From: Comamonadaceae bacterium 2FH
Lineage (GTDB): Bacteria > Pseudomonadota > Gammaproteobacteria > Burkholderiales > Burkholderiaceae_C
Direction of reading: 5' to 3'
DNA: 64,000 bases
Assembly: GCA_005503335.1 (NCBI GenBank)
Contig: SCMQ01000003.1
Span: 124,001 to 188,000 of the forward strand
Every line of letters begins with the position of its first letter. The stretch's first letter is position 1. Made by a program: the position numbers and the translations under genes. The notes beneath the pieces were generated by a model. That model had not been told where the DNA came from, did not search any database, and saw only the letters and a list, made by a program, of their open reading frames with translations. This document shows positions 24,407 through 58,420 of this stretch, piece after piece.

Positions 24407-24425
24407 AGACAAGGAGTTGCCTGCC

Positions 24426-25355: not shown

Positions 25356-25364
25356 GGAGTCGAC

Positions 25365-25832: not shown

Positions 25833-26696
<864 letters not shown>

Positions 26697-38657: not shown

Positions 38658-39734
<1,077 letters not shown>

Positions 39735-39745
39735 GAGTCCGCGCC

Positions 39746-42345: not shown

Positions 42346-42357
42346 GAACCTGACCCC

Positions 42358-43563
42358 ATGAGCAACGCAACCCCTTCCCAAAATCTGCCGCTCGCCGGCC
42401 TGCGTGTCGTCGAATTCACCCACATGGTCATGGGCCCGACTTGCGGCATGGTGCTGGCCGACCTGGGCGCCGAGGTCATCAAGGTCGAGCCCATAGACGG
42501 CGACCGCACGCGCCACCTGCTGGGCGCGGGCGCGGGTTTCTTCCCCATGTTCAACCGCAACAAGAAGAGCATCGCGCTGGACCTGCGCAGCCCCGCGGGC
42601 GCCGAGGCGGCGCGCCGCCTCGCGGCCAGCGCCGACGTGGTGGCCGAGAACTTCAAGCCCGGCACCATGGCCAAGTACGGCCTGGACTACGCCAGCCTGT
42701 CCAAGACCAACCCGCGCCTGATCTACGTGAGCCACAAGGGCTTCCTGCCCGGCCCCTACGAGCACCGCACGGCGCTGGACGAGGTGGTGCAGATGATGGG
42801 CGGCCTGGCCTACATGACCGGCCGGCCCGGCGACCCGCTGCGCGCCGGCAGCAGCGTCAACGACATCATGGGCGGCATGTTCGGCGCCATAGGTGCGCTC
42901 GGTGCGCTGATCCAGCGCGGCATCACCGGCCGCGGCCAGGAAGTGCAGAGCGCGCTGTTCGAGAACAACGTGTTCCTGGTCGGCCAGCACATGCTGCAGT
43001 ACGCGATCACCGGCCAGCCCGCCGCGCCCATGCCCGACCGCATCTCGGCCTGGGCCGTGTACGACGTGTTCACCGTCAAGGACGGCGAGCAGATCTTCCT
43101 GGCCGCGGTCAGCGACGCGCAATGGGCCACCTTCTGCGACGCGCTGGGCTTCGCCGACCTCAAGGCCGACCCGCGCTACGCGACCAACAACGAGCGCGTG
43201 CGCCTGCGCCCCCAGCTGCTGCCCGAGCTGCGCGAGCGCCTGGCCCGGCGCAGCGCAGCCGAGCTCGCGGCCCTGTTCGAGCAGGCGGGCCTGCCGTTCG
43301 CGCCCATCCGCAAGCCCGAGGAGCTCTACGACGACGAGCACCTCAAGGCCACCGGCGGCCTAGCCGAGATCCGCCTGCCGGACGGCGCGCGCGCCGGCCA
43401 GACCGCGCAGACCACCTTGCTGCCCTTCACCATGGACGGCCAGCGCCCGGGCGTGCGCCTGCAGCCGCCGACCATGGGCCAGCACACGGCCGAGCTGCTG
43501 GCCGGCCTGGGCTACACGCCGGCCGACCTAGCGGCCCTGCGCGAGCAGGGGGCGGTGGCCTGA
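42358..43563 (+). CDS. family III CoA-transferase (CaiB/BaiF)
   Basis: 401 residues of the CaiB/BaiF CoA-transferase family. The N-terminal Rossmann-like start VVEFTHMVMGPTCGMVLADL and VIKVEPIDGDRTRHL are typical. The catalytic aspartate is expected in SSVNDIMGGMFGAIGALGAL (about residue 165). It follows fumarylacetoacetase by 12 bases. With the lyase-like gene at the head of the operon it could activate a hydroxy-dicarboxylic acid to its CoA ester for cleavage. Substrate unproven. Confidence 0.9.
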   Translation: MSNATPSQNLPLAGLRVVEFTHMVMGPTCGMVLADLGAEVIKVEPIDGDRTRHLLGAGAGFFPMFNRNKKSIALDLRSPAGAEAARRLAASADVVAENFKPGTMAKYGLDYASLSKTNPRLIYVSHKGFLPGPYEHRTALDEVVQMMGGLAYMTGRPGDPLRAGSSVNDIMGGMFGAIGALGALIQRGITGRGQEVQSALFENNVFLVGQHMLQYAITGQPAAPMPDRISAWAVYDVFTVKDGEQIFLAAVSDAQWATFCDALGFADLKADPRYATNNERVRLRPQLLPELRERLARRSAAELAALFEQAGLPFAPIRKPEELYDDEHLKATGGLAEIRLPDGARAGQTAQTTLLPFTMDGQRPGVRLQPPTMGQHTAELLAGLGYTPADLAALREQGAVA

Positions 43564-44896: not shown

Positions 44897-46942
44897 ATGA
44901 CCACTCTTCTTCAAAGCTTCATAGCCGGCCGCTGGATCGGCCAGCAGGCGGCCCAGGCGCTGAAAAGCGCCGTCAACGGCCAGACCGTGGCCCAGACCCA
45001 TGCCGAGGCGATCGACTTCGGCGAGGCGGTGGACTATGCGCGCCGCGTGGGCCTGCCGGGCCTGCTGGCGCTCGATTTCCAGCAGCGCGCCGCGCGCCTG
45101 AAGGCCCTGGCCAAGTACCTGGGCGAGCGCAAGGAAGAGCTCTACGCGGTTTCGGCCCACACCGGCGCCACGCGCACCGACAGCTGGATCGACATCGAGG
45201 GCGGCAGCGGCACGCTGTTCTCCTACGCCGGCGTGGGCAGCAGCGAGCTGCCCAGCGGCAACCTGATCCACGAGGGCCCGGCGCTGCAGCTGGGCAAGAA
45301 GGGCCTGTTCGGCGGCACCCACATCCTGGTGCCGCGCGGCGGCATTGCGGTCCACATCAACGCCTTCAACTTCCCCATCTGGGGCCTGCTCGAGAAGTTT
45401 GCGCCCAGCTTCCTGGCCGGCATGCCCTGCATAGGCAAGCCCGCCACGGCTACCAGCTACCTGACCGAGGCCATGGTGCGCCTGGTCAACGAATCGGGCA
45501 TCCTGCCGGCCGGCGCGCTGCAGCTGGTGATCGGCAGCACCGGCGACCTGCTGGACCGCCTGGACGGCAGCGACGTCGTGACCTTCACCGGCTCGGCCGA
45601 CACGGCCGCCAAGCTGCGCGTGCACCCCAACATCGTGCGCAACAGCATCCCCTTCAACGCCGAGGCCGACTCGCTGAACTGCGCCATCCTGGCCCCGGAC
45701 GTGACGCCCGACGACGAGGAGTTCGACCTGTTCGTCAAGGAAGTGGCGCGCGAGATGACCGTCAAGGCCGGCCAGAAATGCACGGCGATCCGCCGCGCCA
45801 TCGTGCCGCGCCAGCACCTCGACGCCGTGGCCGAGCGCCTGGCGGCGCGCCTGGCCAAGACCGTGGTGGGTGACCCCTCGGTCGAGGGCGTGAAGATGGG
45901 CGCGCTGGCCTCGCTGGACCAGCAGGCCGACGTGGCCGAGCGCGTGGCGCTGCTGCGTCAGGGGGCCGAGCTGGTCTACGGCGGCGGCCAGGGCTTCGCG
46001 CCGCTGGGCGAGGGCGTCGCCGGGGGGGCTTTCTTCCAGCCCACGCTGCTGCTGTCGCGCCAGCCGCTGGCCCACGACGCGGTGCACGACGTCGAGGCCT
46101 TCGGCCCGGTCAGCACGCTGATGCCCTACGAGGGCATTGAAGAAGCGCTGCAGCTGGCCGCGCGCGGCAAGGGCAGCCTGGTCAGCACCCTGGTGACCAA
46201 GGACCCGGCCACGGCCGCGACCATGGTGCCGGCCCTGGCCGCGCTGCACGGCCGCGTCCATGTGCTGGACCGCGAGTCGGCGCCCGAGTCGACCGGCCAC
46301 GGCTCGCCGCTGCCGGTGCTCAAGCATGGCGGCCCGGGTCGCGCCGGCGGCGGCGAGGAGCTCGGTGGCCTGCGCGCCGTCACGCACCTGCTGCAGCGCG
46401 CCGCGGTGCAGGGCTCGCCCACCATGCTGACTGCCGTGACGCGCGAGTACGTGCGCGGCGCCAAGGTGATCGAGACCGGCACGCACCCGTTCCGCCGCCA
46501 TTTCGAGGACATCCAGATCGGCGAGTCGCTGCTGACTGCGTCGCGCGTGATCGGCGACGAGGATGTCCATGCCTTCGGCAAGCTGACTGGCGACATGTTC
46601 TACATGCACTTCGACGAGGAAGCCGCCAAGGCCTCGCCGTTCGGCAAGCGCATCGCCCACGGCTACCTGGTGCTGTCCGATGCGGCCGGCCTGTTCGTGG
46701 TGCCCGAGCCGGGCCCGGTGCTGGCCAACTACGGCCTGGACACCCTGCGCTTCGTCAAGCCCGTGGGCATAGGCGACAGCATCCAGGTGCGCCTGACCTG
46801 CAAGCGCAAGATCGACCGCAACAAGAAGGACGCCAACGGCCAGGGCCAGGGCGTGGTGGCCTGGGACGTGGAAGTCAAGAACCAGGACGGCGAGCTGGTG
46901 GCCAGCTACGACATCCTGACCCTGGTGTCGAAGAAGGCCTGA
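44897..46942 (+). CDS. paaZ: PaaZ bifunctional oxepin-CoA hydrolase / aldehyde dehydrogenase
   Basis: 681-residue fusion enzyme of aerobic phenylacetate degradation. The aldehyde dehydrogenase domain (about residues 1-525) has the catalytic Cys295 in AGQKCTAIRR. The C-terminal MaoC-type hydratase domain (about residues 545-681) has Asp566 and His571 in TGDMFYMHFDEE. The N-terminal part hydrolyses/oxidises the ring-opened aldehyde and the MaoC domain opens oxepin-CoA. Both active sites look intact. The rest of the paa operon is absent here. Confidence 0.94.
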   Translation: MTTLLQSFIAGRWIGQQAAQALKSAVNGQTVAQTHAEAIDFGEAVDYARRVGLPGLLALDFQQRAARLKALAKYLGERKEELYAVSAHTGATRTDSWIDIEGGSGTLFSYAGVGSSELPSGNLIHEGPALQLGKKGLFGGTHILVPRGGIAVHINAFNFPIWGLLEKFAPSFLAGMPCIGKPATATSYLTEAMVRLVNESGILPAGALQLVIGSTGDLLDRLDGSDVVTFTGSADTAAKLRVHPNIVRNSIPFNAEADSLNCAILAPDVTPDDEEFDLFVKEVAREMTVKAGQKCTAIRRAIVPRQHLDAVAERLAARLAKTVVGDPSVEGVKMGALASLDQQADVAERVALLRQGAELVYGGGQGFAPLGEGVAGGAFFQPTLLLSRQPLAHDAVHDVEAFGPVSTLMPYEGIEEALQLAARGKGSLVSTLVTKDPATAATMVPALAALHGRVHVLDRESAPESTGHGSPLPVLKHGGPGRAGGGEELGGLRAVTHLLQRAAVQGSPTMLTAVTREYVRGAKVIETGTHPFRRHFEDIQIGESLLTASRVIGDEDVHAFGKLTGDMFYMHFDEEAAKASPFGKRIAHGYLVLSDAAGLFVVPEPGPVLANYGLDTLRFVKPVGIGDSIQVRLTCKRKIDRNKKDANGQGQGVVAWDVEVKNQDGELVASYDILTLVSKKA

Positions 46943-48107
46943 TCAGGCAGCCTGTGCCCGGTAATGCGCCACGGTGGCCGCGAGGCCCTGGGCCAGCGTG
47001 GTGCGCTGGCGCCCCGGCAGCAGCGCGTCCAGGCCTTCCTCGTCTAGGCCGGGCGCAATCGTGAGCGGCGGGCCCACCGCGTCCAGCCGGGCACCAGGCG
47101 GCGGATCTCGGCCATTACCTGGTCCACGGTGGCGGTTTCGCCGACCAGGTTGTAGACGCTGGCGCCCTGGGCCGGCGTGAGCAGGGCCTGCTCGAAGGCG
47201 GTGGCCACGTCGTCCACGTAGATCAGGCCCGAGGCGCCGGTATAGCCTATCGTGTACGGCTCGTCGCGCACGGCGGCGCGGCAGGCAATGCTGGGGCCGG
47301 CGCTGATACCGCTCTCGCGCCCGGGCCCGTAGACCACGAAGGGCCTGAAGCCCACGCTGGCCAGGCCATGGTCGCGCCAGTAGGCGCGCGCCGAGCCTTC
47401 CACGGCGAGCTTGAAGGCGCCGTAATGCGTGGCCGGCAGCGGCTGGCGCGCATCGTCGGGGCCGTAGACGCCCGCGGTGCTGGCGTAGACCAGCTGGCGC
47501 AGGCCCTGGGCGCGCGCCGCCTCGAACAGGTTGAGCGAGCCGATCAGGTTGATCCAGGAGTCTGTCGGGCTCTGGGATGGCCCCGCGCCGGGGCGAGTCG
47601 GGGCGCCAGGCGAGGCGGCGGCGACGCCGCATGGCCGAGCCATGCAAGGAGCCGGCAACGACGCATGGCGCCCCGAATCGCCCCGGCCCGAAGGGTTGGG
47701 CCGGAAACCGGGCCGATGCGGCGTTGCAAATGCTCGCCGGACGGCTAGTCCGGCTGCGCTTTGCGCCTTGCCTCGACCCGGTTTCTGGCCCAACGCGGGG
47801 CCATCCCAGAGCCCGACAGACTCCTTGCGCCGCGCACCGGGTCGGCCGCGCAGGCCGGGGTCAGCACGCCGGCCAGGTGGACGATGCCGTCGCAGCCTGC
47901 GGCGGCGCGCCGCACGGCCGCGCCGTCGCGGATGTCGCCGACCTGCCAGTCCAGGGACTGGGCCAGGGCGTGGCCCGCGACCTCGGCGACGATGCGGCGC
48001 TCGGCGCTGATGTCGAACACCCGCGCCGCGATGCCGCGCCGCGCCAGGCGGCGGATGATCCAGGCGCCGAGGAAGCCGCTGCCGCCGGTGACCAGGACTT
48101 GTTTCAT
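46943..48107 (-). pseudogene. NAD-dependent epimerase/dehydratase, disrupted by an insertion and a frameshift
   Basis: The 5' part (48107 down to about 47825) reads MKQVLVTGGSGFLGAWIIRR and ends at VHLAGVLTPACAADPVRGA. The same protein resumes at about 47556 with INLIGSLNLFEAARAQGLRQ, including LVYASTAGVYG and the YxxxK-like YGAFK, and runs to IRRLVPG. The gap is filled by a 268-bp element with inverted ends. Near 47085-47095 a second lesion, apparently one lost base, shifts the frame, and the true C-terminus (RLDAVGPPLTIAPGLDEEG onward) continues in the other frame to 46943. Without the element it would encode about 298 residues. It is the last gene of the long minus-strand operon and touches the paaZ stop. 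Confidence 0.85.
47557..47824. mobile_element. 268-bp MITE-like element with 31-bp perfect terminal inverted repeats
   Basis: The left end (47557-47587, starting GGAGTCTGTCGGGCTCTGGG) and right end (47794-47824) are perfect inverted copies of 31 bases. The interior has no transposase and only chance reading frames. It splits the epimerase gene between the codons for PVRGA and INLIG. I see no convincing target duplication at the borders, so the exact ends may be a few bases off. It is probably moved by a transposase encoded elsewhere. Confidence 0.8.
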
Positions 48108-48117
48108 GTTTGCTCCT

Positions 48118-48936
48118 TCAGCGGTCCAGCGGGGGCTTGCCCGGGCGGCCCGGGATCATGGCCAGCATGTGGTCGGAGATGCCGCCGTCGACCACCAGGT
48201 TCTGGCCCGTCACGTAGGCCGCGCCGGCGCTGGCCAGCCAGGCCACGGCCGCGCCCACGTCCTCGGCGCGGCCGATGCGGCCCAGCGGCACCAGGGCCTC
48301 GCGCCGGGCCAGGGTGCCGGGGTCCTGGTAGACGGCCTCGGTCAGCGGGGTGCGGATCATGCCGGGGCAGACCGTGTTGACGCGTATGCCCGGCTCGGCC
48401 CATTCCTGGGCGAGCTGGCGGCACAGCATGATCAGCGCGGCCTTGGCGGCCGAGTAGGCGCCGTAGCCGGGATGCGGGGTGAGGCCCGACATCGAGGCGA
48501 CGGCCGTGATGCTGCCGCGTGTGCGCGCCAGTGGCTCGCGGGCGGCCTGGGCCAGCAGCCAGGCCGAGCGGGTGTTGAGGTTGAACGTCGCGTCCCACTG
48601 GGCCAGCGGCAGGTCGGCCAGGCGGCCGGGCCCGGAGGCGCCGGCGTTGCAGACCAGGGCCGTGAGCTCGCCGCCGCCGGCCTGGGCCTGCGCGACCAGG
48701 GCCGCGCATTGCTGCGCATCGGTGAGGTCGCCGCTCACGCCGCCGGCCGTGGCGCCGGCGGCGCGCAACTCGGCCAGCAGGGCCTGCAGGCGCTCGCCGG
48801 GCTGCGAGGCCGCGGCGCTGAGGTGGATGGGGGCGCCGTCCCGGCGTGCCTGGTCGATCAGCGCGAAGCAGATCGCGCGGCCTATGCCGCCCGTGGCACC
48901 GGTCACCAGGGCGTGGCGGGGAGGGGTGGCCTGCAT
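48118..48936 (-). CDS. SDR family oxidoreductase (SDR-A)
   Basis: 272-residue classical short-chain dehydrogenase. Cofactor motif TGATGGIGRA (residues 13-22), CNAGASG, catalytic Ser in VASMSGLTP and YGAYSAAKA (Tyr-x3-Lys), then the PG motif VCPGMIRTPL. A 5-base gap separates it from the binding-protein gene upstream, so it is part of the long operon. It presumably oxidises or reduces a hydroxyl/keto intermediate of the imported compound. Confidence 0.9.
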   Translation of the reverse strand: MQATPPRHALVTGATGGIGRAICFALIDQARRDGAPIHLSAAASQPGERLQALLAELRAAGATAGGVSGDLTDAQQCAALVAQAQAGGGELTALVCNAGASGPGRLADLPLAQWDATFNLNTRSAWLLAQAAREPLARTRGSITAVASMSGLTPHPGYGAYSAAKAALIMLCRQLAQEWAEPGIRVNTVCPGMIRTPLTEAVYQDPGTLARREALVPLGRIGRAEDVGAAVAWLASAGAAYVTGQNLVVDGGISDHMLAMIPGRPGKPPLDR

Positions 48937-48941
48937 GGCGC

Positions 48942-50120
48942 TCAGAGCTTGCAGTCGGGCGAGGGCTGGGGCGCCAGCGTGGCCGGGAAGCTCTGCTGGA
49001 TCACCGGGCGCAGCTTGCCGCCCTCGGCCTTGACCACGCCGACGTAGTTGGGGATCAGCAGCTGGTTGTCCTGGGCGCGCATGGTGACTTGGCCGTACAC
49101 GGTGTCCAGCTGGGCGCCGCGCAGGGCCTTGGCCACTTCGGCGGGCTTGACGCTGCCGGCCTTCTTCACGCCCTCGAACATGACCTGGATGCCGTTGTAG
49201 GCAGCGCCTTCGTTCTCGGTCGGCAGGCGGTTGAACTTGGCCTTGAAGGCCTGGACGAAGGCCTTGTTGCGCGGGTTGTCGATCTCGGCGCCGTAGCCGA
49301 TGTTGCCCCAGGTGCCCTCGGTGGCCTTGCCGGTCGCGTCGGCCACGTACTGGAAGATCAGCGCATGGCCCAGCAGGCGCTTAGGGCCGATCAGGCCGAA
49401 CTCCTGGGCCTGCTTGACGAAGGCGATGCCGTCGCGGCCGACGATGGCGACCCAGACCGCCTGGGCGTCGGAGGCCTTGAGCTGGGCGATGTAGGGCGAG
49501 AAGTCCTTGGTGCCCATGGGCACGTAGAGCGACAGGTCGGCTTTCTTGCCCAGTGCGGCGGCCTTCTTGACGAAGGATTCGCCGGAGTCGCGGCCCCAGA
49601 CGTAGTCGGAGGCGATCACGGCGTAGTTCTGCTCCTTGAAGCTCTTCATCCACTCGCCGATCATGGCCAGGTCCATGGCGTCGGAGTGGTTGGTGCGGAA
49701 GCTGCGCGCCTTGCAGCTGTCGCCGGTCATCTTGTCCGACTTGGACAGGGTGCCGAAGTAGACCGCGTCCCAGCGCTCCAGGTTCTGGGCGATGGCCATC
49801 GAGATGGAGGAGGGGATGGCGCCGATCAGCAGGTTGTGGCCATCGCGCGCGAGCTTCTCGGCCACGCGGCGGCCGGCGTCGGGCGTGCCCTCGTCGTCGG
49901 CGACCTGCACCTTGACCTCGCGGCCGTCCACGCCGCCCTTGGCATTGGCCTCGTCGATCGCGAACTGGATGGCGCGCAGCACCTCCTCGCCCTGCTGGGC
50001 GAACTGGCCGGACTTGGACGTCACGAGGCCGACCTGGACCGGCTCCTTCTTCTGCGCGAGTGCCGCGAAGGGCAGGATGGCGCTGAGGGCCAGGGCGGCG
50101 AGGGGTTTGAGCTTCGACAT
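48942..50120 (-). CDS. ABC transporter substrate-binding protein, branched-chain amino acid/aromatic type (LivJ-like)
   Basis: 392-residue periplasmic binding protein of the HAAT/LivJ class (type 1 fold). The signal peptide is MSKLKPLAALALSAILPFA, then AALAQ, before KEPVQVGLVTSKSGQFAQQG. Such proteins in catabolic operons bind aromatic acids, amides or other small carboxylates as often as amino acids. It lies 71 bases after the LivF-type ATPase gene. Confidence 0.92.
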   Translation of the reverse strand: MSKLKPLAALALSAILPFAALAQKKEPVQVGLVTSKSGQFAQQGEEVLRAIQFAIDEANAKGGVDGREVKVQVADDEGTPDAGRRVAEKLARDGHNLLIGAIPSSISMAIAQNLERWDAVYFGTLSKSDKMTGDSCKARSFRTNHSDAMDLAMIGEWMKSFKEQNYAVIASDYVWGRDSGESFVKKAAALGKKADLSLYVPMGTKDFSPYIAQLKASDAQAVWVAIVGRDGIAFVKQAQEFGLIGPKRLLGHALIFQYVADATGKATEGTWGNIGYGAEIDNPRNKAFVQAFKAKFNRLPTENEGAAYNGIQVMFEGVKKAGSVKPAEVAKALRGAQLDTVYGQVTMRAQDNQLLIPNYVGVVKAEGGKLRPVIQQSFPATLAPQPSPDCKL

Positions 50121-50191
50121 GCTTTGTCTCCGAAAGGTGAGGATGGGAATACCGGATGCGGTCCGGCGGCCGGTCTTGCAAGAAAAGCGGT

Positions 50192-50896
50192 TCAGACCAT
50201 CACATGGGCCTCGAGGTCGGCGAGCCCCTGGCGCGAGTTGACGACCTCGCCCTGGGCCACTACCGAGCCCTTGGCCATGGCGCAGTAGCGCTCGGCCACA
50301 CGGGTGACCAGGCTCATGTTCTGCTCGATCAGCAGCAGGGCCGTGCCCTGGTCCGCGACCTTGTTGAAGATCTGGGCCAGCTGGTCCACGATCACCGGGG
50401 CCAGGCCCTCGGTCGGCTCGTCGAGCAGGATCAGCGCGGGGTTGGCCATCAGCGCCCGCCCCACGGCCAGCATCTGCTGCTGGCCGCCCGAGAGCGCCGT
50501 GCCCGGCGTGTGGGCGCGCTCCTCGAGGATGGGGAACAGCTTGTAGATCGCGGGCACGGTCCAGGGCCCCTTGCGGCCCACGGCCGCGCCCAGCAGCAGG
50601 TTCTCCTCCACCGTGAGGTTGGCGACGATGCGCCGGCCCTGCGGCACCACCACCACGCCATGCTGGGCGGCCAGGTAGGGGCGCGGCCGCGGCAGGAGCT
50701 TGCCGCCCAGGCGGATCTCGCCGCCGCGCAGCGCGGCCAGGCCCAGGATGGTGTTGACCACCGTGGTCTTGCCCACGCCGTTGCGCCCGATCAGCGCCAC
50801 GCGCTCGCCGGGGTTCACCGTGAGGCTGAGGCCGTGCAGGATATGGGCAGAGCCATAAAAAGCATTGACGTTCTCAAGTTTCAGCAAGGCGGTCAT
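50192..50896 (-). CDS. ABC transporter ATP-binding protein, LivF type
   Basis: 234 residues. Walker A GRNGVGKTT (about residues 37-45), signature ALSGGQQQMLAVGRAL, Walker B LILLDEPTEGLAP and LLIEQNM. The short length and NGVGKTT/QQQML wording are typical of LivF. Its start codon overlaps the stop of the LivG-type gene by 4 bases. Confidence 0.93.
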   Translation of the reverse strand: MTALLKLENVNAFYGSAHILHGLSLTVNPGERVALIGRNGVGKTTVVNTILGLAALRGGEIRLGGKLLPRPRPYLAAQHGVVVVPQGRRIVANLTVEENLLLGAAVGRKGPWTVPAIYKLFPILEERAHTPGTALSGGQQQMLAVGRALMANPALILLDEPTEGLAPVIVDQLAQIFNKVADQGTALLLIEQNMSLVTRVAERYCAMAKGSVVAQGEVVNSRQGLADLEAHVMV

Positions 50897-51612
50897 GCAG
50901 CGCTCCCGAGATAGGCTTCGCGCACGCGCGGGTCGGCGCGCACGGCGGCCGGCTCGCCACTGGCGATCACGCGGCCCAGTTCAAACACCGTCACGACATC
51001 GGAGATGCCGAACACCACGTCCATGTCGTGCTCGACCAGCAGCACGGACACCTCCCAGCGCGAGGTCAGCGCCTTCAGATGCCTGGCCAGGTCGTGCGAC
51101 TCCTTGACCGACAGTCCGGCCATGGGCTCGTCGAGCAGCAGCACGCTGGGCCGGCCCACCAGGGCCAGTGCCAGGTCCAGCCGGCGCTGCTGGCCGTAGC
51201 CCAGGTCTTCGGCGATCGCGTCGGAAAGCGGCAGCAGGTCCAGCTCCTGGAGCACCGCGTCGGCGTCGGCGTCCGGGTCTGCCACGCCCATCTTGTAGGA
51301 GGCCAGCTCGACCTGCTTGCGCACCGGCATCTGGCCGAACACGCTGGTGCGCTGGAAGCTGCGCGAGAGGCCGCGCATGCGGCGCTCGCTCACGCCTAGC
51401 GCGCTCACATCCTGGCCGCCCAGCATCACCTTGCCGCGCGTGAGGCGCCGGCGGCCGGTGATGGCGTCGATCACGGTGGACTTGCCGGCGCCGTTGGGGC
51501 CGATCAGGCCGCGGATCTCGCCCTTCCTGAGCGTCAGCGAGACGCCGTCCACCGCCTTGACGCCGCCGTAGTGGATGGCGACGTCCTCGGCCTGCAACAC
51601 GAATTCACTCAT
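50893..51612 (-). CDS. ABC transporter ATP-binding protein, LivG type
   Basis: 239 residues from the ATG at 51612 (MSEFVLQAEDVAIHYGGVKA). AAGGA sits 6 bases upstream of this ATG, whereas another ATG two codons earlier touches that site. Walker A IGPNGAGKST, the LivG-type SRSFQRTSVFGQM segment, signature DLGYGQQRRLDLALAL and Walker B VLLLDEPMAGLS. The membrane permease gene lies 11 bases upstream. Confidence 0.93.
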   Translation of the reverse strand: MSEFVLQAEDVAIHYGGVKAVDGVSLTLRKGEIRGLIGPNGAGKSTVIDAITGRRRLTRGKVMLGGQDVSALGVSERRMRGLSRSFQRTSVFGQMPVRKQVELASYKMGVADPDADADAVLQELDLLPLSDAIAEDLGYGQQRRLDLALALVGRPSVLLLDEPMAGLSVKESHDLARHLKALTSRWEVSVLLVEHDMDVVFGISDVVTVFELGRVIASGEPAAVRADPRVREAYLGSAA

Positions 51613-51623
51613 GGCCATTCCTT

Positions 51624-52646
51624 TCAGTGCGCGGTGGCGGAGTGGGTGGCGGGCGCCGCCGCGGCGCCCCGCGGGCGGGCCGCGGCCAGGGGCGCGTGGC
51701 GCTTGCGTGGCCGGGCCAGGCGCTGCAGGGCGCCGGCCATGCCGCTCGGGGAGAACACGATCACGGTGATCAGCGCGATGCCGAAGATCGCCATCCAGTG
51801 GTTGGCCCAGTCGCCCAGGATGTCCTTGGCCAGGAAATAGACCATGGCGCCCAGCACCGGGCCCCACAGCGCCTTGTAGCCGCCGACCACCACCATCATC
51901 AGCGCCACGCCGGAGACGCTCCAGTGCAGGCTCTCGGGCGAGACGAAGCCGGTGTTCAGCGCCGACAGCACGCCGGCCACCGAGGTGATGCCGGCCGACA
52001 GCGCGAACAGCGCGGCGCGCGGCAGCAGGGTGCGGATGCCGATGAAGCGCGCGCGCTCCTCGTTGTCGCGCACCGCCTCGGTGACGGCGCCGAAGCGCCC
52101 GTGCAGCGCCAGCGACAGGCCCAGCATGCACAGCACCAGCACCACCCAGCAGACCAGGAACATGGGGGCCGGGCGCAGCAGGGCCGAGGTGGAGAGGCCG
52201 AACAGCTGGCTCGGCCAATCGATGTTCATGCCGTCGGCGCCGCCGGTCAGGCCGCGCGAGCGCGAGGCGGTGAGGAAGAACATCTGGCCCACGGCCAGGG
52301 TCAGCATGCCGAAGGCGATGCCGGGCACGCGCACGATGATCAGGCCGAGCAGGAAGCCGAAGGCCGTGAGGCCGAGCACGGCGATCACGATGGCGGCCTC
52401 GGCCGGCACGGCCTTGAGCTGCAGCAGGATGCCAACCACATAGCCGGCCGAGCCGAAGAACAGGGCATGGCCGAAGCTGGCCATGCCGTTCTGGCGCAGC
52501 AGCAGGCCCAGGCCGAGCGCGAACACGGCGTAGATCGTGGCCTGGGTCAGCAGCGACAGCGCGGTGCCCGAGCTGACGGCGAAGGTGAGGGCGAGGCCGG
52601 CCAGCAGTGCGGCGGCGGCGCAGGCCAGGAGGCGGGACAGGGACAT
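51624..52646 (-). CDS. ABC transporter permease, LivM type
   Basis: 340-residue membrane permease from the ATG at 52646 (MSLSRLLACAAAALLAGLAL), chosen because AAGGAGGT lies just upstream. About eight to ten hydrophobic helices; the cytoplasmic coupling loop is AVRDNEERARFIGIRT (around residues 207-222). The C-terminal 35 residues are an Arg/Ala/Pro-rich tail that is probably cytoplasmic. Confidence 0.9.
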   Translation of the reverse strand: MSLSRLLACAAAALLAGLALTFAVSSGTALSLLTQATIYAVFALGLGLLLRQNGMASFGHALFFGSAGYVVGILLQLKAVPAEAAIVIAVLGLTAFGFLLGLIIVRVPGIAFGMLTLAVGQMFFLTASRSRGLTGGADGMNIDWPSQLFGLSTSALLRPAPMFLVCWVVLVLCMLGLSLALHGRFGAVTEAVRDNEERARFIGIRTLLPRAALFALSAGITSVAGVLSALNTGFVSPESLHWSVSGVALMMVVVGGYKALWGPVLGAMVYFLAKDILGDWANHWMAIFGIALITVIVFSPSGMAGALQRLARPRKRHAPLAAARPRGAAAAPATHSATAH

Positions 52647-52659
52647 GATGGGACCTCCT

Positions 52660-53511
52660 TCAGGTACGGCTGCCAGCAAAGCCCGCGGGCTTCCACAGCA
52701 GGATGGCGACCATCAGCGCAAACGGCAGCACGGCCGACAGGTCGGGCAGGTAGACCGCGCCGAGCGCCTGCACCTGGCCCAGCACCAGCGCCGCGACGAA
52801 GGCGCCGGCCAGGCTGCCCAGGCCGCCGATCACCACCACCACGAAGGAGTCGATCAGCACGTCGCTGCTCATGGCCGGCGAGAGCGCGAGAAAGGGCGCG
52901 GCCACCACGCCGGCCAAGCCGGCCAGGGCCGTGCCCAGGCCCACCACGCCGGCGCTCAGCGCGTCGGTGTTGACGCCCTGCATGGCGGTGGTGGTGGGGT
53001 CGGTGCTGGCGGCGCGCACGAACAGGCCGAGCTTGGAATGGCGCAGCCACAGGCTCAGGCCCAGCGCCACCAGGGCGCCCACGGCGACCACCGCGACTCG
53101 GTAGGCCGGCACCGGCGCGCCCAGCAGCTCGACCGAGCGGCTCAGCAGATCGGGCGCGGGCACCGAGAGGTTGCCCTTGCCCCAGGTGGTCTGCACGAAG
53201 TCCTCGATCACCAGCAGCAGGCCGAAGGTGACCAGCACCACGGTGAGCGGGTCGCGGTCCTGCAGCAGGCGAAAGCCCCAGCGGTCGAGCAGCACGCCGA
53301 CCACGGCCATCAGGGCCGGGGCGGCGAGCAGGGCCACCCAGAAGTTGCTGTGGGTGGCGATCGAGTAGCCTAGGTAGGCCCCCAGCATGTAGAGCGAGCC
53401 GTGGGCGAAGTTCACCACTCGGCGCAGGCCGTAGATCAGGGCCAGGCCCGAGCACATCACGATCAGCAATGCGCCGTAGACCAGGCCGTTGAACAGGTGG
53501 ATGGTCAGCAT
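52660..53511 (-). CDS. ABC transporter permease, LivH type
   Basis: 283 residues from the ATG at 53511 (MLTIHLFNGLVYGALLIVMC), supported by AGGAGA upstream. Typical LivH features are LIYGLRRVVNFAHGSLYMLG, the coupling loop VRAASTDPTTTAMQGVNTDA, and the C-terminal LPFALMVAILLWKPAG. It is 13 bases before the LivM-type gene and 58 bases after an SDR gene. Confidence 0.92.
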   Translation of the reverse strand: MLTIHLFNGLVYGALLIVMCSGLALIYGLRRVVNFAHGSLYMLGAYLGYSIATHSNFWVALLAAPALMAVVGVLLDRWGFRLLQDRDPLTVVLVTFGLLLVIEDFVQTTWGKGNLSVPAPDLLSRSVELLGAPVPAYRVAVVAVGALVALGLSLWLRHSKLGLFVRAASTDPTTTAMQGVNTDALSAGVVGLGTALAGLAGVVAAPFLALSPAMSSDVLIDSFVVVVIGGLGSLAGAFVAALVLGQVQALGAVYLPDLSAVLPFALMVAILLWKPAGFAGSRT

Positions 53512-53569
53512 CTGTCTGTCTCCTAGTGTTGTTGCGAAAATTCCGGCGCGAGCCGGTGGCAGCCAGTCC

Positions 53570-54424
53570 TCATGACAGCTCCGAGGACAGGCCGGGCAAG
53601 GCGCTTTCGGTGGCACCGAAGGCCGACCAGCCGCCGTCGACGCTCAAGCTGGCGCCTGTGACGTAGCTGGCCCGGGGCGAGGCCAGGAACACGATGGCCT
53701 CGGCGATTTCCGCCGGCTCGGCCATGCGGCCCAGCGGCGTGCGGTGCTGGATGGCAGGGCCGTCGACCGCGCCCTGGCGCACCAGCTCGGCCACCAGCGC
53801 GGTGCGCACGTAGCCGGGCGCGACCGCGTTGACGCGTATGCCCTCGCGCGCCCATTCGCTGGCCAGGGCGCGCGTCATGCCGAGCAGGCCGGCCTTGGCC
53901 GCGCTGTAGGCGTTGCGGCCCGGGATGCCGACTAAGCTGGCGATGGAGCCCAGGTTGACGATGGCGCCGCGGTTGCCGCGCGCGTCGCGGGCTTGGCCGC
54001 GCATGTGCGCCAGCACGGCCTGGCTCATCAGGAAGCTGCCGCGCAGGTGCACGGCCAGCACGCGGTCGAAGGCCGCGGCGCTCTGGTCCAGCGTGGGCGC
54101 GGTCTGGTCGGCGATGCCGGCGTTGTTCACCAGGGCGTCGAGGCGGCCGAAGCGGTCCAGCGTAGCGGCCACGGCGGCCTGCACGCTGTCTGCGTCGGTC
54201 ACGTCGCAGCCCAGGCCCAGGTGACGGTCGCCGAGCTCGGCGGCACGGGCCTGGGCGGCCTCGGCGCGCAGGTCGAGCAAGGCCACGCGCCAGCCCTGGG
54301 CCGCGAATTCGCGCGCCGTGGCCCAGCCTATGCCGTCGGCGGCGCCGGTGACGATGGCGACGGCAGGCGCGAGGGGTTGAGCATCCCCCTGCGCGGGCAG
54401 CGCATGCGTGTTGGGATCGGTCAT
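53570..54424 (-). CDS. SDR family oxidoreductase (SDR-B)
   Basis: 284 residues. TGAADGIGWATA cofactor motif (about residues 26-37), VNNAGIAD, catalytic GSIASLVG serine and YSAAKAG, and VAPGYVRTAL. It sits between the NIPSNAP gene (3 bases) and the LivH-type permease, so it belongs to the same transcript. Likely an alcohol/ketone interconversion in the unknown pathway. Confidence 0.9.
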   Translation of the reverse strand: MTDPNTHALPAQGDAQPLAPAVAIVTGAADGIGWATAREFAAQGWRVALLDLRAEAAQARAAELGDRHLGLGCDVTDADSVQAAVAATLDRFGRLDALVNNAGIADQTAPTLDQSAAAFDRVLAVHLRGSFLMSQAVLAHMRGQARDARGNRGAIVNLGSIASLVGIPGRNAYSAAKAGLLGMTRALASEWAREGIRVNAVAPGYVRTALVAELVRQGAVDGPAIQHRTPLGRMAEPAEIAEAIVFLASPRASYVTGASLSVDGGWSAFGATESALPGLSSELS

Positions 54425-54427
54425 GGC

Positions 54428-54766
54428 TTAGCTCCTGGGGCTGGGCAGGCCGGGCATGTCCGCCGCCTTGATCAGGCGCGTCTCCTGCGCGGTGATCAGG
54501 TGGGCCGAGGCCTGCAGGTAGGCCGGGAAGTCCGGGTGCGTATCGCGCGCCCGGCAGCGCCGCTCGTAGTCGGCCAGGTCCTCGTAGGCCCAGAGGTGCA
54601 CGAACTGGTTCTGCGGGCCCACGAGGCTGGTGTAGAAGCCGATCGGGTGGCCCAGGGTCTCGATCAGGATGGGCATGGCCATGCGGTTGAACACCTCGAG
54701 GAACTCGGGCATCTTGCGCAGGGCGATGGTGTAGACGCGGTGGTCTATCAGCGTCCTGTGGCTCAT
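54428..54766 (-). CDS. NIPSNAP family protein
   Basis: 112-residue ferredoxin-like (dimeric alpha/beta barrel) protein. The start at 54766 has AAGGAG upstream and overlaps the flavoprotein stop (ATGA). Family features are the opening DHRVYTIALRKMPEFLEVFN, the GFYTSLVGPQNQFVHLWAYE strand pair and YERRCRARDTHPDFPAYL. Small NIPSNAP proteins often accompany catabolic flavoproteins; an isomerase or monooxygenase-like role is possible but unknown. Confidence 0.85.
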   Translation of the reverse strand: MSHRTLIDHRVYTIALRKMPEFLEVFNRMAMPILIETLGHPIGFYTSLVGPQNQFVHLWAYEDLADYERRCRARDTHPDFPAYLQASAHLITAQETRLIKAADMPGLPSPRS

Positions 54767-56502
54767 GCGGCGACTCCTTTCGCGACCTCGACGTTCGCGA
54801 CCCGGCCCTGGGCCCGGTCGGCGATGTGGTTGCCGGTCACGAAGCCGAAGGTCATGTTCGGGCCGTGCGTGATGCCGGCGCCAGGGTAGTTGCCGCCCAT
54901 CACGCTGGCGCGGTCGTTGCCCACCGCGTACAGGCCGTCGATGGGCTGGCCGTCGCGCTTGAGCACCTCGCCGATCACGCTGGTCTGGATGCCGTCGAAG
55001 GTGCCGAGGTCGCCCATCACCACCCTCACGGCGTAGAACGGGCCTTTTTCCACCGGCGCCACGCAGGGATTGGGCTGCTGATCGGGGTCGGCCAGGTAGC
55101 GGTTGAACGAGCTGCGGCCGCGGCCGAAGGCCGGATCCTCGCCGCGCACGGCGTGTTGGTTGTAGTCGCGCACGGTCTGCTCCAGGCCTGCGGCGTCCAT
55201 GCCGCAGGCGCGGGCCAGCTCGGCCAGGGTCTTGCCCTGGTAGAGGTAGCCGTTCTTGATGTGGCGGGCTATCGGCATGGGCGCGGGCTTGACATAGCCC
55301 AGGCCGTACTTGGCCAGCGTGGTCTTGTCGCAGACCAGCCACATGGCCGTCTCCTTCTGGCCTTCGCAGGCTCGCGTGAGCGCGGCGCCCACGTCGTGGT
55401 AGGAGTTGGACTCGTTGGTGAAGCGCTTGCCGTTCTTGAGCACGCCGATCACGCCGGGCTTGTAGCGGTCCAGCAGGTGGGGGAACACGCCGAACTCGCC
55501 GTTTCCGAAGGGTACGCGCGACACCGGCATCCAGGCCGCGCTGTCCGTGAAGCGTATGTCGACCCGGCCGCCGGCCGCCTCGGCCATGTTGACGCCGTCG
55601 CCGGTGTTGCCGACCGGCGTGGGCGAGAGGTGCTCGTGGCCGCGCCGCAGATGCGGGTAGGCCTTGGCGATGCGCTTGATGTCGTGCGGAAAGCCGCCGC
55701 AGGCCAGCACCACGCCATGGCGCGCGACGATGCGGCGCTCACCGCCTGCGCCGCCTGTACGCACGCCTGCCACCCTGTTGCCCTTGAAGATCAGCTCCTT
55801 GGCCGGCGTGCCGGTCAGGATGGGGATGCCCAAGTCCAGCGCCGACTTGGCCAGCCGCGCCGCCAGCGCGTTGCCGCTGGTCACGTTGATGCCGCGGCGG
55901 TAGAGCGCCAGCTCCTTGAGGTGGGTGGCCAGGCGCTTGGCGACATACACGAAGGAGGTCAGCGACTGGGTGGCGCGGAAGAAATGCTTGAGGTCGGCAT
56001 TGGACGAGTTGAACATCATGCCGATGAAGGTGATGGTCTTGAGCGGCGGCTTCAGGCGCGCCATGTCCTTGCCCAGGCCGCGGATGTCGTAGGGCGCGGC
56101 CAGGATGGAGCGGCCCAGGTCCACGCCGCCAGCCCCGTCGGGGTGGTAGTCGGGGTAGAGCGTGGGCACGAACTGCATCTCGGTCTCGCGCTCGAAGAAT
56201 TCGACCATCCTGGGGCCGTTGTCGAGGAAGGCCTCGACGGCCGCCTCGTCGTAGTGCTGGCCGGTCTCGGCCATCATGTAGCGGCGCACGGCCTCGCGCG
56301 TGTCGGCCGGGTTCTGCTTGCGCCCATGGTGGTTGAGCGGGATCCAGAGCACGCCGCCGGACAGGGCGGTGGTGCCGCCGAACACCGGCTCCTTCTCCAG
56401 CACGAGCACATCGAGGCCGCGCTTCTTCGCGGTGATGGCCGTGGCCAGGCCGGCGGCGCCGGAGCCGACGACGATCAGGTCATATTCAAGCTGGTTGCCC
56501 AT
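54763..56502 (-). CDS. FAD-dependent 3-ketosteroid-dehydrogenase-like flavoprotein
   Basis: 579 residues of the KstD/fumarate-reductase flavoprotein family. The N-terminal FAD motif is VVGSGAAGLATAITAKKRGL, followed by LEKEPVFGGTTALSGGVLW. The C-terminal motif GGNYPGAGITHGPNMTFGFV resembles the Tyr-Pro-Gly-x-Gly site of 3-ketosteroid delta-1-dehydrogenases. It is therefore expected to introduce or remove a ring C=C double bond next to a ketone. No signal peptide. It lies between two SDR/NIPSNAP genes of one operon. True steroid specificity is not established. Confidence 0.82.
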   Translation of the reverse strand: MGNQLEYDLIVVGSGAAGLATAITAKKRGLDVLVLEKEPVFGGTTALSGGVLWIPLNHHGRKQNPADTREAVRRYMMAETGQHYDEAAVEAFLDNGPRMVEFFERETEMQFVPTLYPDYHPDGAGGVDLGRSILAAPYDIRGLGKDMARLKPPLKTITFIGMMFNSSNADLKHFFRATQSLTSFVYVAKRLATHLKELALYRRGINVTSGNALAARLAKSALDLGIPILTGTPAKELIFKGNRVAGVRTGGAGGERRIVARHGVVLACGGFPHDIKRIAKAYPHLRRGHEHLSPTPVGNTGDGVNMAEAAGGRVDIRFTDSAAWMPVSRVPFGNGEFGVFPHLLDRYKPGVIGVLKNGKRFTNESNSYHDVGAALTRACEGQKETAMWLVCDKTTLAKYGLGYVKPAPMPIARHIKNGYLYQGKTLAELARACGMDAAGLEQTVRDYNQHAVRGEDPAFGRGRSSFNRYLADPDQQPNPCVAPVEKGPFYAVRVVMGDLGTFDGIQTSVIGEVLKRDGQPIDGLYAVGNDRASVMGGNYPGAGITHGPNMTFGFVTGNHIADRAQGRVANVEVAKGVAA

Positions 56503-56515
56503 CAGTGCCTCGGTT

Positions 56516-57331
56516 CTAGGAGGTTTGGTTGAAGCCGGGGCGGGGCACCATGTCCATCAGCATGGAGGACATGCCGCCGTCGACCACGATCTCGGCCGCG
56601 TTGACATAGGCCGAGCGCGGGCTGGCCAGGAACAGCGCGACGTCGGCGATGTCCTGCGGCTCGCCGATGCGGCGGCTGGCAGTGACGGCGGCGCGCTTTT
56701 GCGCTAAGCCCGGTTCCTCGTAGAACCTGGCCGACAGGGCGGTGCGGATCATGCCGGGGCAGATGGCGTTGCTGCGCACGCCCTGCGGCCCCCATTCCAC
56801 GGCCATCTGGCGCGACATCAGCAGCACGCCGGCCTTGCTGGCGCTGTAGGCGCCGCTGGCGGTCTGGGGCGCGAGGCCGGAGATCGAGGCCACGTGGACG
56901 ATGCTGCCGCGGCCGGCCGCGCGCATGGGCTTGGAGAAGGCGCGCGCGCACAGCAGGTAGCCGGTCAGGTTCACGGCCAGCACGCTGTTCCAGTCGGCCA
57001 GGCTGACTTCGGCCAGGCTGCCGGGGCGCAGCAGGCCGGCGTTGTTGACCAGCACCGCGCCGGCGCCGAGCTCGGCCTGCACGCGCTCGGCCGCGGCCTG
57101 CACGCTGGCCTCGTCGGCGATGTCGCAGCTCACGGCGAGAGCGGTGGCACCAGCGGCCGCGAGTTCGGCCGCGACGCGCTCGCAGCCGGCGGCGTCGCGG
57201 TCGAGCAGGGCGACCTGGGCGCCGGCCTGGGCCAAGCCCTGGGCGATGGCCGCGCCTATGCCGCTGGCGGCGCCGGTCACGACACAGACCTGGCCTGCAA
57301 GGCCCAGCCAGTGACGGGATGAATCGGACAT
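56516..57331 (-). CDS. SDR family oxidoreductase (SDR-C), first gene of operon
   Basis: 271 residues from the ATG at 57331 (MSDSSRHWLGLAGQVCVVTG), supported by GAGGAGA upstream. TGAASGIGAAIA cofactor motif, VNNAGLL, ASISGLAP and YSASKAG active site, CPGMIRTALS. It is the promoter-proximal gene of the long minus-strand operon and faces the AraC regulator. It shares with SDR-A the ending VVDGGxS...M.P, suggesting these two are paralogues. Confidence 0.9.
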   Translation of the reverse strand: MSDSSRHWLGLAGQVCVVTGAASGIGAAIAQGLAQAGAQVALLDRDAAGCERVAAELAAAGATALAVSCDIADEASVQAAAERVQAELGAGAVLVNNAGLLRPGSLAEVSLADWNSVLAVNLTGYLLCARAFSKPMRAAGRGSIVHVASISGLAPQTASGAYSASKAGVLLMSRQMAVEWGPQGVRSNAICPGMIRTALSARFYEEPGLAQKRAAVTASRRIGEPQDIADVALFLASPRSAYVNAAEIVVDGGMSSMLMDMVPRPGFNQTS

Positions 57332-57385
57332 GTGGTCTCCTCGGGAAGCGATGCTGGATTGTTCGTTCCGCAGGCCTCGCACAGT

Positions 57386-57414
57386 TTGACGATTCACGCC
57401 AACAGCAGGACAAT
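57386..57414 (+). promoter_or_regulatory. promoter of the AraC-family regulator
   Basis: TTGACG (57386-57391) and GACAAT (57409-57414) are separated by 17 bases and point to the AraC gene at 57443. The region between the divergent starts is only 111 bases, so the promoter of the long operon must overlap or abut this one, which suits joint control. Confidence 0.45.
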
Positions 57415-57442
57415 TCGTGCATTCTTTTTAGGAGCAGCTTCC

Positions 57443-58420
57443 GTGGCTCGGGTTATCCCTAACTACGCGCTCTACGGCGATCAGGCCCAGCCGGGCTGGC
57501 ACAACTCGTTCGATTTCGAGTGGATTCCGCAGCGCTCCCGCCCGTACAACTGGGAGATACAGCCGCATCTGCACGATGCCTTCGTGCAGATCCTGTACCT
57601 GACCGAGGGCTCGGTCGAGGTGCAGCTGGACAATGCCAAGTGGCTGGCCCGCGCGCCCTGCCTGCTCTTGATTCCGGCACAAACCGTGCACGGCTTTCAT
57701 TTCTCCACCGACGTCAACGGCCCCGTGGTCACGGCCACGCAGCGCCCGCTGGAGTCGCTGGCCGCGGTGCTCATGCCCGAGCTCGTGCAGACCCTGCGCA
57801 AGCCCGCCGTGATCCTGCTCGACGACGCCAGCCGCCATGCCGAGGCGTTGATGCCTCTGTTCCTGGCGATCGAGCGCGAGTCGCGCATGCACGCCATCGG
57901 CCAGGTCGCGGCGGGCATGTCGCTGATCACCGCGGTGCTGGTGCAGATCGCGCGCCTGGGCGACCTGATGCAGCCCACGCCGCTGACGGTGAGCTCGCGC
58001 AAGACGCAGCAAATCGAGAAGTTCCGCGCCCTGGTCGACGAGCATTTCAAGAAGCACCTGGCCATGTCGGCCTACGCCAGCCAGCTCGGCATCACGCCGG
58101 GCCAGCTCTCGCGCCTGTGCCGCGAGGTGCTGGGCATCTCCAGCCTGGAGGTGATCAACGCGCGCCTGGTGCACGAGGCGCAGCGCGACCTGGTCTACAC
58201 CAGCGTCAGCATCAAGCAGCTGGCCGGCCAGCTGGGCTTTGCCGACGAGGCCTATTTCGGCCGCTTCTTCCGCAAGCACACGGGACTGAGCCCGCGCGAG
58301 TTCCGCGCGCGCGCGCTGCAGGCCCTGCTCAAGCCCGAAGGCGACGGTGTCCGATCTTCAAGAGCTCAGCCAACGTCAGTGGCGACGCCTTTGCTGAATC
58401 AAGCCCCGGCGCGGCGGTAA
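57443..58420 (+). CDS. AraC-family regulator (PobC-like), divergent from the flavoprotein/SDR/ABC operon
   Basis: 325 residues from a GTG at 57443 (VARVIPNYALYGDQAQPGWH), chosen because AGGAG (57430-57434) is 8 bases upstream; the longer frame reaches into the divergent SDR start. The N-terminal cupin-like sensor (IQPHLHDAFVQILYLTEGSV) resembles PobC-type regulators of 4-hydroxybenzoate genes. The C-terminal AraC domain (about residues 190-295) has SAYASQLGITPGQLSRLCRE and IKQLAGQLGFADEAYFGRFF. Likely activator of the divergent operon. Its last 22 bases overlap the end of the opposing regulator gene. Confidence 0.85.
   Translation: MARVIPNYALYGDQAQPGWHNSFDFEWIPQRSRPYNWEIQPHLHDAFVQILYLTEGSVEVQLDNAKWLARAPCLLLIPAQTVHGFHFSTDVNGPVVTATQRPLESLAAVLMPELVQTLRKPAVILLDDASRHAEALMPLFLAIERESRMHAIGQVAAGMSLITAVLVQIARLGDLMQPTPLTVSSRKTQQIEKFRALVDEHFKKHLAMSAYASQLGITPGQLSRLCREVLGISSLEVINARLVHEAQRDLVYTSVSIKQLAGQLGFADEAYFGRFFRKHTGLSPREFRARALQALLKPEGDGVRSSRAQPTSVATPLLNQAPARR

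Follow-up and report, generated by a model that had tools for sequence, protein, structure and literature searches.

What is taken up and oxidized by an operon that combines a KstD-like flavoprotein, three short-chain dehydrogenases (SDRs), a NIPSNAP protein, and a Liv-type importer? The question is raised by a locus of Comamonadaceae bacterium 2FH (Burkholderiales; GenBank assembly GCA_005503335.1), which lies in a stretch of 64,000 nucleotides of contig SCMQ01000003.1 (forward strand, positions 124,001 to 188,000; in the following, this whole stretch is called the window, and its coordinates are used). An original prediction, made from the letters and their open reading frames (ORFs), held that these genes form an operon with a divergent AraC-type regulator, that no described pathway with such a gene set was known, and that the set suggests the breakdown of an alicyclic keto or hydroxy acid, or of a terpenoid-like compound, up to aromatization or ring cleavage. 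Comparison with related loci and genomes suggests, with a confidence slightly better than even, that the operon serves the substrate-inducible uptake of hydroxy- or oxo-cyclohexanecarboxylate and its aromatization to 4-hydroxybenzoate. Judged from neighboring genes and common control sites, the most likely substrate would be cis/trans-4-hydroxycyclohexanecarboxylate or 4-oxocyclohexanecarboxylate.

A conserved core, its proposed operator, and pobA

A survey of gene neighborhoods, as the original prediction had proposed, covered 80 loci, which are the best 80 of 271 relatives in species-representative genomes and not a random sample (1,534,542 bases). In tblastn searches with the window proteins, araC lies divergently beside sdrA, together with the genes for the flavoprotein and NIPSNAP, in 58 of these loci, which exceeds chance. 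The regulator gene (at least 40% identity) was found in 66 loci, and in 64 of them it is divergent and no more than 600 bp away from sdrA; sdrA (at least 58%) was found in 68, sdrB (at least 58%) in 31, sdrC (at least 60%) in 17, and at least one Liv gene (at least 60%) in 26. The conserved core is araC / sdrA-flavoprotein-NIPSNAP.

Between araC and sdrA, the window and 59 loci have sites like GCACGAATTGTCCTGTTcTTgGCngGAATCGTCAA, consisting of two direct half-sites 21 bp (about two helical turns) apart, and a position weight matrix was built from these 60 intergenic regions. The window site is near the consensus (score 50.6; best 53.4) and is the single site with at most three mismatches in the 4.78-Mb genome to which the window belongs; a control with the reversed pattern gave 0 sites. 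The operator precedes sdrA in 66/80 loci, which are the same 66 that hold araC, and the 14 loci without it are the 14 in which araC was not found (among them L028, which ends at a contig edge, and L053, which has sdrA and no araC). In two loci with the operator, L029 and L054, araC was found elsewhere in the locus, away from sdrA. Because of the position of the operator and its co-occurrence with araC, we infer that the AraC protein acts through the 21-bp-spaced repeat before sdrA. A further 30 secondary sites score at least 14 (26 of them at least 17), and each of them, as read by us, has a same-strand gene downstream, namely a cytochrome P450 fusion (15 sites), a PcaK-like gene (5), sdrB (5), a Bug gene (4), and a DctP-like gene (1; L101, named by eye). 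Where sdrB has an operator, the Liv module either is not placed immediately after the core or possesses a separate promoter region. Dinucleotide shuffling of the same loci (1,534,461 bases) gave no site of at least 14, and mononucleotide shuffling (768,574 bases) gave none of at least 17. Since the same operator stands before the fusion, the core, and the importer genes, the hydroxylase, the dehydrogenase-desaturase core, and the exchangeable importers are predicted to form one probable regulon.

The reductase-FCD-P450 fusion was found in 17/80 loci (in two as partial ORFs) by ORF clustering, which yields rough lower bounds for all neighbor counts because the ORF caller merges or misses some ORFs. 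Its domain order, checked on one copy (L090, 5214-8015), is Fer2, FAD_binding_6, NAD_binding_1, FCD, and P450; with a score of 492.4, its reductase portion exceeds the BenC cut-off of 430. FCD domains are usual in GntR regulators, and we know of no described self-sufficient P450 with this domain order. In Paraburkholderia-type loci the core stands beside the fusion, often with pobA and a PcaK-like transporter, and these genes correspond in kind to the hydroxylase, dehydrogenase, desaturase, and PobA steps of the route described below. The PcaK-like gene was found near the core in 10 loci; the protein of L062 misses the cut-offs of both PcaK (509.3 of 770) and its subfamily (394.8 of 418.55) and is therefore only a relative.

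The gene pobA is present in 12/80 loci (10 of Paraburkholderia and relatives, one metagenome-assembled genome (MAG), L036, and one Pseudomonas, L104), as compared to about 0.3 expected by chance in the same number of bases if, by our arithmetic, a 5-6-Mb genome has about one pobA. All 12 proteins pass NF006091 and eight pass TIGR02360; the other four (L036, L065, L067, L075) score 516-535 of 538.7. Among 200 sampled genomes of the window's family, pobA occurs in 16/16 with the flavoprotein (E 1e-220 or better; these 16 may include other context classes) versus 122/184 others, with a one-sided Fisher p = 0.002 uncorrected for shared ancestry and genome size. The respective numbers for hmgA, a control for catabolic breadth counted by eye, are 8/16 and 74/184. 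In one genome of this family (G320), pobA and the flavoprotein gene start 3.3 kb apart on one contig. With a looser threshold (E 1e-150), a flavoprotein match was obtained in 15 of 300 genomes from the order. The window genome itself encodes a PobA on contig 32 that passes TIGR02360 (688.6 bits, cut-off 538.7).

The flavoprotein and its NIPSNAP partner

The nearest solved structures of the flavoprotein are 3-ketosteroid dehydrogenases (7p18, E 3.7e-90; 4c3x, KstD1, E 4.5e-58). In KstD1, Tyr487 and Gly491 promote keto-enol tautomerization, the C2 proton goes to Tyr119 and Tyr318, and the C1 hydride to flavin adenine dinucleotide (FAD) (PMC5348764, in excerpt). In an alignment to 4c3x, for which a numbering offset of 20 was worked out by us, Y119, Y368, Y539, and G543 of the flavoprotein match Y119, Y318, Y487, and G491 of KstD1, i.e., the full catalytic set. 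Conservation was followed in 97 flavoproteins, excluding matches below 500 residues or with stops. All four residues are invariant in the 75 sequences with at least 70% identity; in the 22 more distant ones Y368 and Y539 are invariant as well, whereas 12 of these have F or M in place of Y119 and one has D in place of G543. Because all four KstD catalytic residues align and are conserved, the predicted chemistry is most likely the alpha,beta-desaturation of a ring ketone. Three further residues, H342, R346, and K348 in the segment FPHxxDRxKP, are invariant in all 97 proteins. Neither 7p18 nor 4c3x has a residue that matches H342 or K348, and R346 is matched in 7p18 but not in 4c3x; together the three may form a carboxylate site. 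Among the NCBIfam models, NF004789, the subfamily of the flavoprotein, is matched with 725.7 bits, just under its cut-off of 747.

The NIPSNAP protein passes PF07978 (76.7 bits, gathering score 22.3), and its gene lies at most 250 bp from that of the flavoprotein in 74/80 loci. An alignment of 43 of the 73 sequences found (those on the plus strand with both ends present) has 31 invariant columns of 134. The AlphaFold2 model, which like the first row of the alignment lacks the first Met, has a predicted local distance difference test (pLDDT) value of 93. With this model Foldseek retrieved NIPSNAP structures first, followed by LsrG and putative ABM-type monooxygenases. The NIPSNAP proteins 5kak, 1vqs, 2ap6, and 1vqy share the fold (query TM 0.78-0.85) at 27-31% identity, and their titles give no function; the window-type NIPSNAP differs in being tied to one flavoprotein. 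Barrels related to the NIPSNAP fold include isomerases. Since LsrG and ABM-type proteins are the next-nearest folds after NIPSNAP and related barrels include isomerases, the modeled protein might possibly act as a dienone tautomerase.

Operon layout and surrounding genes

Genes, order, strand, and close or overlapping spacing agree with the original prediction, and so do the Pfam families. From sdrA to the epimerase gene, in the order of Table 1, the minus-strand genes span 46943-57331 with spacings from 4-base overlaps up to a 71-bp gap. The divergent AraC protein matches HTH_18, HTH_AraC, and AraC_binding (region scanned: 57434-58420), the three SDRs and NIPSNAP have their Pfam domains, the flavoprotein carries the motif GGNYPGAG, and the Liv-type (HAAT) importer is complete, with two BPD_transp_2 permeases, two ABC_tran ATPases, and a Peripla_BP_6 protein. 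The operon status is supported by the spacing and the one regulator site upstream, besides the conserved gene order noted above, a kind of support that comes from the DNA and not from transcripts. Ten of the predicted genes are intact, and the last one is broken.

Table 1. Features of the operon and its regulator in the window
Feature	Position	Strand	Remarks
araC regulator with AraC_binding N-terminal domain	57443..58420	+	Divergent from operon; likely GTG start at 57443, read from sequence
Proposed AraC operator	57386..57420	-	Direct repeat GAATTGTCC-N12-GAATCGTCAA, half-site starts 21 bp apart; 54 bp from its end to sdrA
sdrA, short-chain dehydrogenase	56516..57331	-	PF13561; proposed 4-hydroxycyclohexanecarboxylate dehydrogenase (alcohol to ketone)
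KstD-like FAD flavoprotein, 579 residues	54763..56502	-	PF00890 (FAD_binding_2); proposed 4-oxocyclohexanecarboxylate desaturase
NIPSNAP protein	54428..54766	-	PF07978; proposed accessory tautomerase for dienone
sdrB, second short-chain dehydrogenase	53570..54424	-	PF13561
livH-type permease	52660..53511	-	PF02653 (BPD_transp_2); start read from sequence
livM-type permease	51624..52646	-	PF02653 (BPD_transp_2)
livG-type ATPase	50893..51618	-	PF00005, PF12399; start read from sequence
livF-type ATPase	50192..50896	-	PF00005 (ABC_tran)
Periplasmic binding protein of importer	48942..50120	-	PF13458 (Peripla_BP_6)
sdrC, third short-chain dehydrogenase	48118..48936	-	PF13561
NAD epimerase/dehydratase-type gene, broken	46943..48107	-	Translated in three frames and compared with the intact copies of L045 and L032
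270-bp insertion inside epimerase gene	47556..47825		Resembles a miniature inverted-repeat transposable element (MITE); imperfectly palindromic, inverted ends

Compared to the intact copy in L045, the epimerase gene is split by the 270-bp insertion, and its frame shifts again further on. The ends of the insertion are inverted (47556-47592 and 47789-47825; 37 nt, 95%), and the element is 70% identical to its own reverse complement. Besides one full copy, the draft genome contains a match of 50 bp (80%) on contig 12. The second lesion could be explained by an error of the draft assembly, which is less likely for the first. Because homologues (at least 50% identity) occur in just 2/80 loci, the epimerase seems dispensable. 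A gene for a PaaZ-type aldehyde dehydrogenase-MaoC fusion (44897-46942) stops one base before the broken gene, and three Limnohabitans loci (L064, L077, L096) have homologues at 83% in the vicinity of the core.

The region is, judged by eye, rich in aromatic catabolism: 24417-26696 and 39731-43563 look like genes for a LigAB-type extradiol dioxygenase, a homogentisate dioxygenase, and a CaiB-like protein, of which hmgA was confirmed. In the window, neither Rfam (at the gathering threshold) nor a tRNA scan yielded a match. On contig 9 of the same genome, a paralogous flavoprotein gene (51867-53543) precedes genes for an SDR and a Liv importer, and an IclR-like gene lies upstream (neighbors assigned by eye); this set is apparently a parallel system for another substrate. 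The translated end of contig 51 (L116) resembles what we take to be sequencing-adapter sequence and is likely an assembly artefact.

Proposed route, known systems, and alternatives

In an aerobic route, cyclohexanecarboxylate is converted by a P450 to the 4-hydroxy acid, by a dehydrogenase to the 4-oxo acid, and by two desaturases to 4-hydroxybenzoate (PMC9795900, in excerpt, citing Yamamoto 2021 for Sinomonas); the same excerpt reports the aerobic route to 4-hydroxybenzoate in Alcaligenes and Pseudomonas. Having no P450 but an importer and additional SDRs, the window operon would therefore serve ready-made hydroxy- or oxo-cyclohexanecarboxylates. The Liv importer would bring the acid into the cell, where SdrA would oxidize the ring alcohol to the C4 ketone, with SdrB and SdrC possibly acting on other stereoisomers. 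Y539 and G543 of the flavoprotein would then polarize the ketone, Y368/Y119 would remove the alpha proton, and FAD would accept the beta hydride. Two such rounds on both equivalent sides of 4-oxocyclohexanecarboxylate would yield a cross-conjugated dienone that tautomerizes to 4-hydroxybenzoate, perhaps, and this is speculative, speeded by NIPSNAP. The product could probably be used by the cell, as the PobA encoded elsewhere in the genome would convert it to protocatechuate. Transcription would be controlled by the divergent AraC protein via the repeat before sdrA. The part of the original prediction that pointed to an alicyclic keto or hydroxy acid and to aromatization agrees with these findings, and a terpenoid-like substrate gained no support.

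Such a kind of pathway is already known, and the gene set, control, and partner protein differ. As far as PMC9795900 in excerpt and the NCBIfam names describe it, the Chc pathway of Sinomonas cyclohexanicum shares a ring alcohol dehydrogenase, an FAD desaturase (ChcC2) related to the flavoprotein, a P450 (here in sister loci), and PobA downstream. According to these sources, Chc has two desaturases, whereas the window operon has one flavoprotein and adds NIPSNAP, the AraC operator, and the Liv importer; in place of the Chc P450, sister loci have the reductase-FCD-P450 fusion. The SDRs failed the ChcB cut-offs (ChcB2: sdrB 210.7 and sdrA 184 of 350; ChcB1: sdrB 178.2 of 400), and their identification as ChcB was rejected because such hits reflect similarity common to SDRs: BadH, too, reaches 179 on ChcB2. 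The bad-ali pathway acts on the same substrate class and, according to the same excerpt, opens the ring in a coenzyme A (CoA)-dependent manner, without the aromatic product of the route proposed here. Pseudomonas putida KT2440, which uses 4-hydroxybenzoate, acquired growth on cyclohexanecarboxylate only when bad-ali genes were introduced, as reported in PMC9795900 for this growth. In Limnohabitans, Curvibacter, and related MAGs, bad-ali genes are found next to the core, and the proteins checked, one each, pass their cut-offs: AliA (L066, a Burkholderiales MAG; 946 of 792.3), AliB (L069; 678.1 of 575.35), BadI (L103; 528.8 of 467.6), and BadH (L069; 459.2 of 431.2). The window genome has a badI above cut-off on contig 34, and no operator of the AraC type was found before bad-ali genes in the 80 loci. 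The claim that no described pathway has this set was thus too strong, because the Chc route is described, at least in the excerpt, and NCBIfam models exist to which the flavoprotein is related but below cut-off. In the open-licence literature searched, neither the exact combination of AraC, NIPSNAP, and Liv importer was found nor any description of the genes with which Proteobacteria carry out the aerobic aromatization to 4-hydroxybenzoate.

Several observations weigh against the aromatization of cyclohexanecarboxylates in strain 2FH. The flavoprotein fails the cut-offs of ChcC2 (NF053677; 550.7 of 900) and ChcC1 (NF053676; 328.5 of 1000). Its paralogue on contig 9 scores slightly higher on ChcC2 (563.2), for which reason this score was rejected as proof of function; a genome-wide search, made for ChcC2 only, found no match that reaches the cut-off. 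The P450 evidence and most of the pobA evidence come from a sister clade: in a quick FastTree phylogeny with weak inner support, the flavoproteins of P450 loci form a separate clade (17/18 members, support 1.0) that excludes the window protein. In the window genome the fusion was not found (only partial matches to separate P450s or reductases, the best at 36%), and pobA is not adjacent to the operon. The solved relatives of the binding protein do not point to one ligand; the best is 3ip5 (E 1e-25), and 17 relatives of several kinds score alike, with titles that give no single ligand class. Finally, NIPSNAP was not found in 6/80 loci, which fits a reaction running unaided and equally argues against an essential role.

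The same chemistry might act on another hydroaromatic acid, either a polyol acid resembling quinate or shikimate or a ring ketone with different substituents. The three SDRs and the epimerase would then handle several hydroxyl groups, and 4-hydroxybenzoate would not be the product. This minority possibility arises because in many loci the core has a second, hydroaromatic-looking cluster next to it, and a similar one was seen by eye on contigs 51 and 60 of the window genome; both observations also count against the proposed substrate. The neighbors are AroE-like (17 loci), a second flavoprotein (12), IolG-like Gfo/Idh (14), IclR-like (11), and CoA-transferase-like (8) genes, the AroE, flavoprotein, and Gfo/Idh types having been scanned on one protein each and the rest assigned by eye. 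In L044 the sdrB-liv genes come after AroE and the second flavoprotein, and Bug genes adjoining the AroE-type cluster carry the operator in four loci. However, this cluster sits on other contigs in the window genome, none of the 80 loci has an operator of at least 14 before AroE or the second flavoprotein, and the operator-linked P450 together with the pobA pattern favors a single C4 oxygen. An improbable explanation, and all that remains of the predicted ring cleavage, is that the flavoprotein-NIPSNAP pair feeds CoA-thioester ring opening rather than aromatization. It draws on 12/80 loci (L038, L043, L048, L051, L074, L086, L089, L091, L095, L097, L099, L102) that have the flavoprotein (71-80% identity) and NIPSNAP without araC or sdrA; they speak against the proposed route as well, as does the grouping of the window flavoprotein with 10 of them, at a support of 0.25. 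Most adjoin Bug genes, and several have acyl-CoA dehydrogenase-, thiolase-, DUF35-, or CaiB-like genes (by eye or similarity). In the window, genes for a thiolase and a MaoC protein, and an ORF that by eye resembles an acyl-CoA ligase, lie 1-5 kb beyond araC, but the operon itself has no CoA ligase, thiolase, or acyl-CoA dehydrogenase, and at 45% identity or more the 80 loci contain no thiolase relatives and one ligase relative (L048, 53%).

Still less probable is an operon for A-ring dehydrogenation of steroids or terpenoids. The flavoprotein shares the sequence family and all four catalytic residues with KstD1 and 7p18, and steroid dehydrogenases are its nearest solved structures, but it stays below the cut-offs of all three steroid KstD models matched (NF009478, 458.3 of 789; NF005882, 414.2 of 788; NF009479, 371.6 of 793), and the FPHxxDRxKP segment with H342 and K348 sets it apart. 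The known steroid gene cluster that the original prediction had named as a counter-indication was not seen; no steroid gene was noticed among the annotated neighbors, although no genome-wide search for such genes was made. The steroid reading was rejected on gene context and model cut-offs. It is just as improbable that the operon is decaying and has little present function: the epimerase gene is broken twice, but the ten other genes and araC are open throughout, the operator has kept its near-consensus form, and an epimerase so rare among the loci seems dispensable.

Beyond the aromatization proposed for the window operon, we tentatively consider, as a rather doubtful extension, a modular AraC regulon for the aromatization of cyclohexane acids, in which one flavoprotein makes both double bonds, NIPSNAP is the tautomerase, and unrelated importers (ATP-binding cassette (ABC), MFS, tripartite, and TRAP-like) and the P450 fusion are swapped in under the same operator, mostly in Burkholderiales and in some Pseudomonas and Rhodocyclales. 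If true, this would to our knowledge be the first catalytic role of a bacterial NIPSNAP. The tight pairing of flavoprotein and NIPSNAP provides a handle for testing NIPSNAP function, and the conserved operator is a marker for finding such regulons in genomes.

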